From contig NZ_QWFZ01000006.1 in NCBI RefSeq assembly GCF_003576315.1, positions 186,001-250,000 of the forward strand: a stretch of DNA of 64,000 nucleotides, read 5' to 3'. The first letter of the stretch is position 1; every line of letters begins with the position of its first letter. This document shows, in pieces, positions 41,978 to 45,056 of this stretch. The stretch is from Henriciella mobilis (GTDB lineage: Bacteria > Pseudomonadota > Alphaproteobacteria > Caulobacterales > Hyphomonadaceae). The notes under the pieces were generated by a model. It saw only the letters and a program-made list of their open reading frames with translations, ran no database searches and was not told the origin of the DNA. The translations under genes were made by a program, and so were the position numbers.

Positions 41978-43213
41978 ATGACACTCAGACTTGCGGGATG
42001 TGCCGCGCTCGGCGCGTTGCTGGCGGCCTGCGGACAACCGGCGGAGAATACAGAGATCGCGGACACGCCCGACGCGGCCGCTTCTTCGGATGAGGGCGCC
42101 GATGCGGGAAATGAGAATGCACAGGCCCCAGCAGGGCCTGAAGCGGCCGATTATGCCAGTATGGACAATTGGCTCTGCCATCCCGACAAGGCCGACAGTG
42201 CCTGCGAGGAAGACTTGTCTTACACGATCGTGAATGGCGATGGGGCGCTGGATGTCGTGCCATTCGAGGCTGCCGAGAACCCACCAGTCGACTGCTTCTA
42301 CGTCTATCCGACCATATCCTTTGACACGACGCCCAATAGTGATCTGGTCGCCGGCGCGGAGGAGAAGCGCGTTGCCGCGACCCAGTTTGGCGCCTTTGCT
42401 GAAACATGCCGGCTGTTCGCCCCGGTCTACCGGCAGGTCACGCTCACACATCTTCAATCGATGATGGCCGGCGGTGAGTTCAAGGCCGACGCCGAACTTG
42501 CCTATGGCGATGTGAAGGCAGCCTGGGACCGTTACCTGGAGACGGAGAACAAAGGCCGCGGTGTCGTTCTCGTCGGTCACTCACAGGGCGCGCGCGTCAT
42601 AGAGCAGTTGCTGCGCCGCGACGTTTTCGGAACACCTTCGCAAGACCTTATCGTGTCCGCGATGCCGATTGGCTACAATGTCTATGGCGACGCCGAGACA
42701 GGCAATGTTGGCCCATTCGAACCATGCGTCACAAAGGGCCAGACGCAATGTGTTGTGGCTTACGTCTCTTTCCGCTCTGACCTGCCGCCCCCGGCTGAAA
42801 GCCGCTTCGGCACCGCCGGTCCGGATGGGCAGCGCGCGCTCTGCGTCAATCCCGGCGAGCTGTCTGGTGATGATGGTGTCCTGGATGCACGCCTTGCCAA
42901 GGCCGGTTTCTTCGGACTGGACAATGCCTCCTTCGTGCAGGGTGCCTCCATCGAGACGCCTTATGCAGCCATGCCCGGTATGCTTTCAGCGCAGTGTGTC
43001 GAAGCGGATGACCACACCTATCTGGCGATCGAAGTGACCGGTGATCCTGTAGACCCGCGCGCCGACGACATCATCGGGGATGTCGTGGTCGGCGGCGAAG
43101 TGCTTGCAGACTGGGGGCTCCACCTGATCGACATGAATGTCGCCATGGGCAACCTCGTCGACATCGTGAAGGCGCAGGCCGAGACTTGGGTGGCCGAACA
43201 GGCGGGTGACTAG
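41978..43213 (+). CDS. DUF3089 family lipoprotein (alpha/beta-hydrolase fold)
   Basis: The 411-aa protein has a lipoprotein signal (LLAACGQ, Cys18) and an acidic linker. The DUF3089 domain includes PVDCFYVYPTISFD and VVLVGHSQGARVIEQLL, with the nucleophile Ser202 in GHSQG. Asp and His partners are likely in the C-terminal region. It resembles an esterase of the envelope; the substrate is unknown. GGAGG lies before the ATG at 41978. The gene diverges from the acetyltransferase-like gene. Confidence 0.9.
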   Translation: MTLRLAGCAALGALLAACGQPAENTEIADTPDAAASSDEGADAGNENAQAPAGPEAADYASMDNWLCHPDKADSACEEDLSYTIVNGDGALDVVPFEAAENPPVDCFYVYPTISFDTTPNSDLVAGAEEKRVAATQFGAFAETCRLFAPVYRQVTLTHLQSMMAGGEFKADAELAYGDVKAAWDRYLETENKGRGVVLVGHSQGARVIEQLLRRDVFGTPSQDLIVSAMPIGYNVYGDAETGNVGPFEPCVTKGQTQCVVAYVSFRSDLPPPAESRFGTAGPDGQRALCVNPGELSGDDGVLDARLAKAGFFGLDNASFVQGASIETPYAAMPGMLSAQCVEADDHTYLAIEVTGDPVDPRADDIIGDVVVGGEVLADWGLHLIDMNVAMGNLVDIVKAQAETWVAEQAGD

Positions 43214-43233: not shown

Positions 43234-44355
43234 TCAGCTGCTGGCAGACAGCCGGTTAGCGAGTTCAGCGTGCCCCTCGATCATGCGCTTGATCTGGGCG
43301 GGATCCGGCTCCATCGCCGTCTCGCCCATGTCGTGCGTGCCACCGAGGACGATACCGGTCTTTCGCGGAAACATGTAGAGCACGCCCTCCGCGGTCGGCG
43401 CGACATAGGAATAATCGATCTCCGGCTGCGGCAGCAGGTGCGAGAGCTGGCCGCGTATGGGCACTAGGCTCTCATCGCCAAACAGGTCTCGCGCGCCGAG
43501 GCCGGTGCAGTTGACGATGACCGGCTCGGGCAGGGCTTCCACGTCGGAGAGGCCCGAAAGGCGCGTGCCGATGAAGTGTGCGCCTGCGATCTGGGCATCC
43601 TGCATGATCTCGTCGAGGTAAAAATCAGGATCGATGATCATGGCCCTGAACCGCTCCATGAAGGCGTAGCCGAACAGCGTGTTCTCATGCGCCCGCTGCA
43701 GCTCGGGATAGATATCGTCGCCGCCCGGCAGCGAGTCGTATGCGACCGGCGTGCGTCTCGAGAGGGCATGGTGGTCTGCCCAGTAGACGCCATAGCCGGG
43801 ACGATCGACGTAAGGCAGGAAGCCACGATGGGCCGAGCGGATCAGCAAGTGGTTGCGGCGGAGAAAGTCAGGCGTGGCTACGTTACGGTCGAAATAGCCT
43901 GTTGGAAACCAGAGAACGCCTGCGATGTTGGATGTGGTATGCGGTGGAAGATGCTCGGCATAGACGGTCACGGCATGGCCGCGCCGGGCCAGGATCAGGG
44001 CGGTCGTAAGCCCCATCACACCCGCGCCCAGCACGGCGATTGGGCCGCCCTCTGACGCCTCGGCAGCCAGTTCGGCGGCGACCGGGCTGGTGCCCCAGCT
44101 CATCGTGACGCCGCAGCCGCCATGGCCATAATTATGGATAATGGTCTTTCCAACCAGCACCTCGGCCTCAAGCCTGTAGCCCTGTGGCCTGTAGGGGCGC
44201 AGGCCCACCACGGTGCGCGTCACTCGTTGCATGGATGACTGGACGGGAGGATAGGTCCGCCCCGGCTGGTATGTCTTGAGCGAGGGCACCGGCATGGATG
44301 TGCATGCACCCAGCGCGGAGAGGCCGAGGCCTGACAGCATGTCCCGTCGTCTCAT
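43234..44355 (-). CDS. Circularly permuted D-amino-acid-oxidase-like FAD oxidoreductase with Tat/lipoprotein signal
   Basis: The 373-aa protein starts with a twin-arginine/lipobox signal (MRRRDMLSGLGLSALGAC, Cys18). Next comes RTVVGLRPYRPQGYRLE (about 47-63) and KTIIHNYGHGGCGVTMSWG (70-88). In ordinary D-amino-acid oxidases these two blocks form the C-terminal end of the protein. Here they come before the FAD-binding GPIAVLGAGVMGLTTALILA (GxGxxG at 110-115). The protein then ends with VLGGTHDMGETAMEPDPAQI, the segment that in standard DAAO comes just before GLRP. So the order of the chain is rotated. The carboxylate-binding Arg of GLRP is retained. A periplasmic DAAO-like oxidase is inferred. 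Confidence 0.85.
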   Translation of the reverse strand: MRRRDMLSGLGLSALGACTSMPVPSLKTYQPGRTYPPVQSSMQRVTRTVVGLRPYRPQGYRLEAEVLVGKTIIHNYGHGGCGVTMSWGTSPVAAELAAEASEGGPIAVLGAGVMGLTTALILARRGHAVTVYAEHLPPHTTSNIAGVLWFPTGYFDRNVATPDFLRRNHLLIRSAHRGFLPYVDRPGYGVYWADHHALSRRTPVAYDSLPGGDDIYPELQRAHENTLFGYAFMERFRAMIIDPDFYLDEIMQDAQIAGAHFIGTRLSGLSDVEALPEPVIVNCTGLGARDLFGDESLVPIRGQLSHLLPQPEIDYSYVAPTAEGVLYMFPRKTGIVLGGTHDMGETAMEPDPAQIKRMIEGHAELANRLSASS

Positions 44356-44392
44356 CGCATCCCCCGCTTTCTGCACACCGCCAGATACAGGA

Positions 44393-44450: not shown

Positions 44451-45056
44451 CTATTCGCCGTCTTCTTCTTCGCTTTCCGGGCGCTGATAGCTGATTTCCG
44501 GACGGCAGTCGGCCACGATCTGGCGGGCCGCTTCGCTTGCCGGAATGGTGGCAACGTCCGAGTCATCGATCACGACGCGGATCACGCCTTTGGCCGAACC
44601 CATCATCGTCGCGAAATAGTCGTTGATCGAGGTGGTGATGTTCACCGGATTATCGGCCGCGACATAGGCCTTCGAGCCAGCCGAGGTGTAGATCGCAATG
44701 GAGGACTGTTCCGAGAGCTCATAATCGTCGGGCAGGTAGCGCAGCATGGAGACCGAGTTGGCCTGGCCTTCCTCGCCGGATTGGCAGACCACGGCGAGTT
44801 GGGCCTCACCGTCGATATCTGAGAATACGGCGGCCGGTGCACGGCTGATCGTGGTGGTTTCCCACTCGCCTTCCATCGCGTCGTCCGTTGCTTCGGTCGA
44901 TGTCACGGCGTATTCGAAATCGGCGAGCTGGATCGACGTGACGCTGCCGTCGCTGCCTTCCGGGTGCGGCGTGGGCATCCGCGCGTCCGGGTCGACGCTG
45001 CCGCCGCCACAGGCTGCGAGGGCGAGGGCTGCGAGGCTCAATGGGAGATGGCGCAT
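44451..45056 (-). CDS. Hypothetical lipoprotein
   Basis: The 201-aa protein has a standard lipoprotein signal (LAALALAACGGG, Cys16). The mature part is acidic with a beta-rich core, one internal Cys (VVCQSGEEG), a second near ADCRPEI and an acidic tail (ESEEEDGE). I know no family. It lies in the gap between the oxidoreductase and purL on the minus strand. The ATG at 45056 is used. Confidence 0.7.
   Translation of the reverse strand: MRHLPLSLAALALAACGGGSVDPDARMPTPHPEGSDGSVTSIQLADFEYAVTSTEATDDAMEGEWETTTISRAPAAVFSDIDGEAQLAVVCQSGEEGQANSVSMLRYLPDDYELSEQSSIAIYTSAGSKAYVAADNPVNITTSINDYFATMMGSAKGVIRVVIDDSDVATIPASEAARQIVADCRPEISYQRPESEEEDGE

Follow-up and report, generated by a model that had tools for sequence, protein, structure and literature searches.

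A circularly permuted relative of D-amino-acid oxidase with an export-type leader in Henriciella mobilis

The 64,000-nucleotide stretch of Henriciella mobilis DNA analysed here as a whole, and called the window (contig NZ_QWFZ01000006.1, positions 186,001 to 250,000), contains at 43234..44355 of its reverse strand a gene for a flavoprotein related to D-amino-acid oxidase (DAAO) and D-aspartate oxidase (DASPO). The canonical DAAO order, with the Rossmann strand first, is absent from this protein; because its blocks are rotated, it is classed as a circularly permuted variant and not as an ordinary member of either group. It is likely a Tat-exported (twin-arginine translocation), probably lipid-anchored enzyme of the family, dependent on flavin adenine dinucleotide (FAD). 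The block order, the homology of both blocks, the core fold of the model, a cut site shared with relatives and an invariant catalytic arginine are what the analysis shows directly. The best reading of the protein is that of an envelope-anchored D-amino-acid oxidase, in which the oxidase activity is what we infer.

Rotated block order and predicted fold

The frame encodes 373 residues plus a stop (P0001), starting with the ATG at 44355 and ending at 43234-43236; an upstream GTG at 44376 is an alternative start that would add 7 residues. All features of the gene described here lie on the reverse strand. A Tat-like leader ending in a lipobox-like LGAC (residues 1-18, Cys18; 44302..44355) precedes the moved C-terminal block of DAAO (residues 44-101; 44053..44226), delimited by phmmer and DSSP and consisting of three strands and the terminal helix (E45-55, E61-67, E70-76 and H86-101 in the model). 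This block holds GLRPYRP (51-57; 44185..44205), in which R53 occupies the position of the catalytic arginine in the alignment to DASPO, and the glycine-rich HNYGHGG (74-80; 44116..44136), whose YGHGG part is conserved in the permuted set and which belongs to a type of segment that lies on the flavin side in DAAO. The old C-terminus is connected to the old N-terminus by a short linker (102-105; 44041..44052), with the helix ending at 101 and the next strand starting at 106 according to DSSP. The DAAO core follows (104-373; 43237..44046), equivalent to old residues 1 to about 271, with the FAD dinucleotide-binding motif GAGVMG (110-115; 44011..44028) and LYMFPR (326-331; 43363..43380), whose Y327 is aligned with DAAO Tyr228 when the protein is compared with 8hy5. 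DSSP and the cut-site comparison place LGGTHDMGE (337-345) and a terminal helix (352-372) at the new C-terminus (together 43240..43347), just before the point where a linear DAAO enters GLRP. The catalytic arginine is presumably R283 in the pig enzyme, and Tyr228 is taken to be its active-site tyrosine. The frame, coordinates and motif positions given in the initial annotation all proved exact.

Homology to DAAO and DASPO covers both the FAD core and the GLRP...YGHGG segment. In a phmmer search of the PDB, human DASPO was matched in two stretches of swapped order (query 104-358 to chain residues 13-263, and query 47-100 to 281-337), with a whole-sequence E value of 1.9e-30. Eighteen PDB sequences reached E <= 0.01; 17 of them were DAAO or DASPO, and 15 of these 17 gave a two-stretch match; for 1c0i and 9vpf one stretch passed the threshold. 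The Pfam DAO profile also fell into two stretches on the protein, the best spanning profile positions 2-293 of 353, while it ran through a linear relative (L174; L numbers denote fetched loci) in a single stretch from 2 to 353. When a profile of 66 permuted sequences was searched against the PDB, the top 17 matches were all DAAO or DASPO, in two stretches each (8e-52 to 3e-40). Among the best 60 of the 209 PDB rows, glycine oxidases came next at about 1e-11, and no best stretch spanned the moved block through the core, as would be seen with a solved permuted member. Motif order and homology are confirmed to be far beyond chance, and chance motifs or an annotation artefact are ruled out by relatives with the identical rotated order. 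The earlier proposal of a true circular permutation with the signatures kept is borne out by the sequence, the core fold, the relatives and the phylogeny.

The structure model has a high predicted local distance difference test score (pLDDT) and a high predicted template modelling score (pTM), with fitting secondary structure, and its predicted core has the DAAO fold. Its best structural matches are DAAO and DASPO, ahead of glycine or sarcosine oxidase, and the lower-scoring ones span many amine substrates. Foldseek and VIA aligned the modelled core alone to DAAO, the moved block lying outside the reported alignments.

Conservation was assessed in a comparison set in which 88 representatives are permuted and 11 are linear. 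The residue aligned with the catalytic arginine is Arg in 88/88 permuted and 11/11 linear sequences, and Arg53, Tyr76, Gly77, His78, Gly79, Gly80, Gly110, Gly112 and Gly115 are shared by all 88 permuted ones.

Relatives, cut site and origin of the permutation

Within its family, 55 of 105 genomes contain a match to the protein at E <= 1e-8, as do 125 of 398 genomes of an order sample, some of the loci being read in each case. A class sample gave 17 of 385 genomes at the same threshold; the loci of all 17 were examined, and 15 are permuted, L054 is linear and L055 lacks the block. In a phylum sample, a profile search matched 22 of 398 genomes, 20 of them permuted and two without the block (L078, L079). 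Named species genomes scanned with query A2 contained at least 367 relatives, of which the best 80 were kept. The block-bearing frames of the first 159 loci comprise 147 permuted, one linear and one undecided (L099, with a cut frame), a ratio that is not a frequency because the loci were fetched with permuted queries. Linear references were therefore sought deliberately with the L054 protein: in Actinomycetota 11 of 119 genomes matched, all linear (L174-L184), and in Alphaproteobacteria two of 240, namely that of L054 itself and G420, whose match is permuted. The enlarged set contains 148 permuted frames, 13 linear ones (L054 and L160, one gene, are both included) and one undecided frame; several loci duplicate a gene, and there are 133 differing permuted sequences with the LGGT block. 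Identity to the H. mobilis protein is 22-43 % for most of 65 aligned sequences.

Going by record titles and their NCBI ranks, the permuted loci belong to Pseudomonadota (35), Planctomycetota (8), Bacteroidota (8), Actinomycetota (4), Chlamydiota (3), Acidobacteriota (3), Cyanobacteriota (3), Verrucomicrobiota (2), Myxococcota (2) and Ignavibacteriota (1), and 79 carry no such rank, uncultured records and Dependentiae among them. Homologues with the same order were thus found in several bacterial phyla; the initial annotation had supposed that they may exist in other alphaproteobacteria, where they are indeed present, and this guess was too narrow. Many permuted loci come from metagenome-assembled genomes (MAGs); records of other kinds include those of Synechococcus SynAce01 (a complete genome), Cyclobacterium, Dyadobacter, Actinomadura, Endozoicomonas and Nonomuraea gerenzanensis. 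The loci L080-L092 are 58-69 % identical to L053, stem from MAGs labelled as many phyla and differ in the layout of the neighbouring open reading frames (ORFs); either recent transfer or mis-binning, to which MAGs among them may be subject, accounts for this pattern. A viral origin was rejected, as only three relatives were found among 27 candidate stretches in viral contigs.

After rotation of all sequences to a common order, the permuted and linear representatives fall on opposite sides of a single branch, which has a support of 99 in the Shimodaira-Hasegawa-like approximate likelihood ratio test (SH-aLRT). On the core alone, where no rotation is needed, the support is 100. When ten outgroup rows of the DAO superfamily are added, the permuted representatives still share one side of a branch (85) and the linear ones no longer do. 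All of these trees were built quickly, contain few linear rows and have some long branches. Taken together, they favour one permutation event in a linear ancestor. In the 88 permuted sequences, a median of 31 residues follows the LGGT block (24-211, the long ones being extensions) and a median of 6 (2-14) separates the joined old ends; in the 11 linear ones, the distance from LGGT to GLRP has a median of 30 (28-35). These lengths fit one common cut.

Most likely, then, the permutation arose once from a linear DAAO. The new ends of the chain lie in the loop that leads into the GLRP strand (about 271/274). The old C-terminal segment (about 274-340 in the pig and human enzymes) now stands ahead of the Rossmann strand, and a linker of about four residues connects it to the old N-terminus. 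A tandem duplication of a linear DAAO with loss of the outer ends could serve as an example of the route; doubled intermediates, with a GLRP block at both ends, were found in none of the 162 block-bearing frames.

Putative export leader and gene neighbourhoods

The N-terminus MRRRDMLSGLGLSALGAC contains a twin arginine, a hydrophobic stretch and a lipobox-like cysteine, as judged by eye. The arginine pair and the cysteine are retained in the same-family relatives examined; in another family of the order (L033-L037), several loci have the arginine pair and lack the cysteine. TatC is encoded in the genome (E 2.5e-70). According to a simple pattern on stop-to-stop frames, which may over- or under-count, a Tat-like leader is present in 65 of the 88 permuted representatives, 33 of them with a lipobox-like cysteine. 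The 23 others include Phycisphaerales, a Rhizobiales/actinobacterial group and Chlamydiae/Dependentiae, with a few Sec-like starts and a few cut frames. In view of these 23, the leader is a frequent addition and not a defining trait. The initial annotation had attached a Tat/lipoprotein signal to the new N-terminus: an export-type leader is there, read from its motif, and it is separate from the permutation.

In six genomes the permuted gene adjoins a same-strand gene for a thiamine diphosphate (ThDP) enzyme: on plasmids of Bradyrhizobium elkanii, Rhizobium ruizarguesonis and Mesorhizobium onobrychidis, and in a Mycolicibacterium MAG, Nonomuraea and a Myxococcaceae MAG (L189 1926-4690; L191 5004-7783; L192 4965-7827; L114 3953-6647; L188; L128). 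The neighbouring enzymes are 38-60 % identical to that of B. elkanii. Those of L189 and L114, the two of the six genomes checked against family libraries, have TPP-enzyme domains, and their best NCBIfam models, under the cut-offs, are indolepyruvate or phenylpyruvate decarboxylase. This linkage, the strongest clue to function, suits a path from D-amino acid via 2-oxoacid to aldehyde. The plasmid records of B. elkanii, R. ruizarguesonis and M. onobrychidis name the permuted gene just 'FAD-dependent oxidoreductase'. An annotated FAD-binding oxidoreductase precedes the pair in L189 (FAD_binding_4/BBE) and L191, and the M. onobrychidis copy (L192 4965-6028) is annotated as two coding sequences, with a frameshift at the FAD motif.

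Other surroundings recur within groups. In the window, a DUF3089 protein with a lipoprotein-like start (41978-43210, forward strand) lies tail-to-tail with the permuted gene, and among 11 loci of the same genus the fetched flank holds a relative of it in 10 (L010-L020, not L019), as does that of L030. Directly upstream of the permuted gene is an ORF of 201 residues, also lipoprotein-like (44454-45056, reverse strand), which has no Pfam match at E 0.001; five other distinct loci have a relative of it in their flanks (L010, L011, L014, L016, L018). At 13 sphingomonad-type loci, the permuted gene stands between same-strand hslV- and hslU-like genes, an unexplained insertion into the HslVU operon (L041, L070, L072, L073, L110, L112, L126, L127, L135, L139, L143; L041, L064 and L161 are one gene within the 13). 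These neighbours were named by eye, and the L135 pair is Proteasome and AAA_2 in Pfam. A panB-like gene lies less than 4 kb from the permuted gene in L103 (ketopantoate hydroxymethyltransferase), L104, L105, L111, L116, L124 and L158, on the opposite strand in five and on the same strand in two.

Probable function and alternative readings

The protein would fold and bind FAD in the cytoplasm before its export by Tat, the leader being carried on the new N-terminus in many, not all, branches. In the envelope, a D-amino acid or close analogue would be oxidised to the imino acid and 2-oxoacid, the electrons passing to O2 with release of H2O2. Several results weigh against this reading. Among the NCBIfam matches listed (25 of 34 rows), no model scores above its cut-off for the protein. 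Coevolution between the moved block and the core does not clearly exceed expectation, with 39 of the top 100 pairs being inter-block as compared with 33 % of all pairs in a shallow alignment (effective number of sequences, Neff, 88). The ThDP decarboxylase linkage was seen in subfamilies other than that of the H. mobilis gene, whose own neighbours, the DUF3089 protein and a gene that looks purL-like by eye, offer no functional hint. No family is represented more than 4 times among 113 neighbour proteins, hand-picked from 155 of at least 120 residues at representative loci from L093 up, a list that leaves out L125, L127, L128 and L158, where the main frame was not found. Finally, the DAAO Tyr224 position is Leu326, and the equivalent of Tyr228, although Tyr in 56/88 permuted and 10/11 linear sequences, is another residue in 32/88 permuted ones.

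These last differences could also mean that the permuted fold serves another role, oxidising a different amine or amino acid or acting as a dehydrogenase that feeds the respiratory chain and not O2. Envelope export would fit a quinone-linked dehydrogenase, and the diversity of substrates among the weaker structural matches is compatible with such a role. We nevertheless regard it as rather unlikely, as DAAO and DASPO rank above glycine and sarcosine oxidase in both structure and sequence, the catalytic arginine is invariant, and the decarboxylase-like neighbour in six genomes suits a step from amino acid to 2-oxoacid. Because Tyr327 is variable and missing from a group with CTRPFR or CLRPFR (L042-L051), at least two substrate classes are likely, and substrates probably differ between permuted subfamilies. 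Specificity for D-aspartate is not favoured: the positions of DASPO Arg216 and Arg237, which we take to determine it, align with a loop and with H341, and relatives vary there.

A pseudoenzyme or structural protein that merely retains the fold seems highly improbable; the activity of the permuted form is deduced and two other PF01266 relatives in the genome score higher, but none of the 88 representatives departs from Arg53, GxGxxG or YGHGG, although most of the 65 aligned sequences are only 22-43 % identical to the H. mobilis protein. An error in assembly, or the chance fusion of a truncated gene end to the front of another FAD gene, may be dismissed for practical purposes: the order itself is unusual and one Mesorhizobium plasmid copy is frameshifted, yet the in-frame order and matching cut site recur in many independent genomes, including isolates and complete genomes, and no frame has a second block.

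DAAO, a flavoenzyme familiar from textbooks and put to practical use, is peroxisomal in eukaryotes. Compared with pig and human DAAO and human DASPO, the H. mobilis protein is rotated, has an export-type leader and lacks a Tyr224 equivalent. With glycine oxidase ThiO, sarcosine oxidase and other enzymes of the DAO superfamily, it has the Rossmann FAD domain and the overall core fold in common. The linear Actinomycetota loci (L174-L184) keep the linear order, and no leader is evident by eye before the FAD strand in these 11. According to a 2022 paper (PMC9844085), bacterial DAAOs carry the signatures GxRPxR and YGHGGxG, as do some glycine oxidases. The linear enzymes of Rubrobacter, Streptomyces and Arthrobacter named there share these signatures with the permuted ones. 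The paper also states that a tyrosine formerly thought conserved varies among DAAOs, that bacterial DAAO genes are hard to find, and that just over ten were known, all from one bacterial group, 'Acinetobacteria', presumably Actinobacteria. A search of PubMed Central papers, a collection without most subscription journals, gave no description of a permuted DAAO.

The permuted family would add DAAO relatives in many phyla, candidates for exported bacterial D-amino-acid oxidation, and a natural experiment showing how a Rossmann flavoprotein can retain its active site through circular permutation. It is tempting, though still speculative, to combine these elements: a single ancient permutation may have founded a mostly exported DAAO branch in at least nine bacterial phyla, which may outnumber linear DAAO outside Actinomycetota and may have been overlooked because searches with linear DAAOs and family models miss the rotated order. 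The shift of the termini away from the FAD strand may have made it possible to add a cleavable Tat leader. If this tentative combination is true, wall-derived or environmental D-amino acids would give rise to 2-oxoacids, ammonia and H2O2 in the periplasm.
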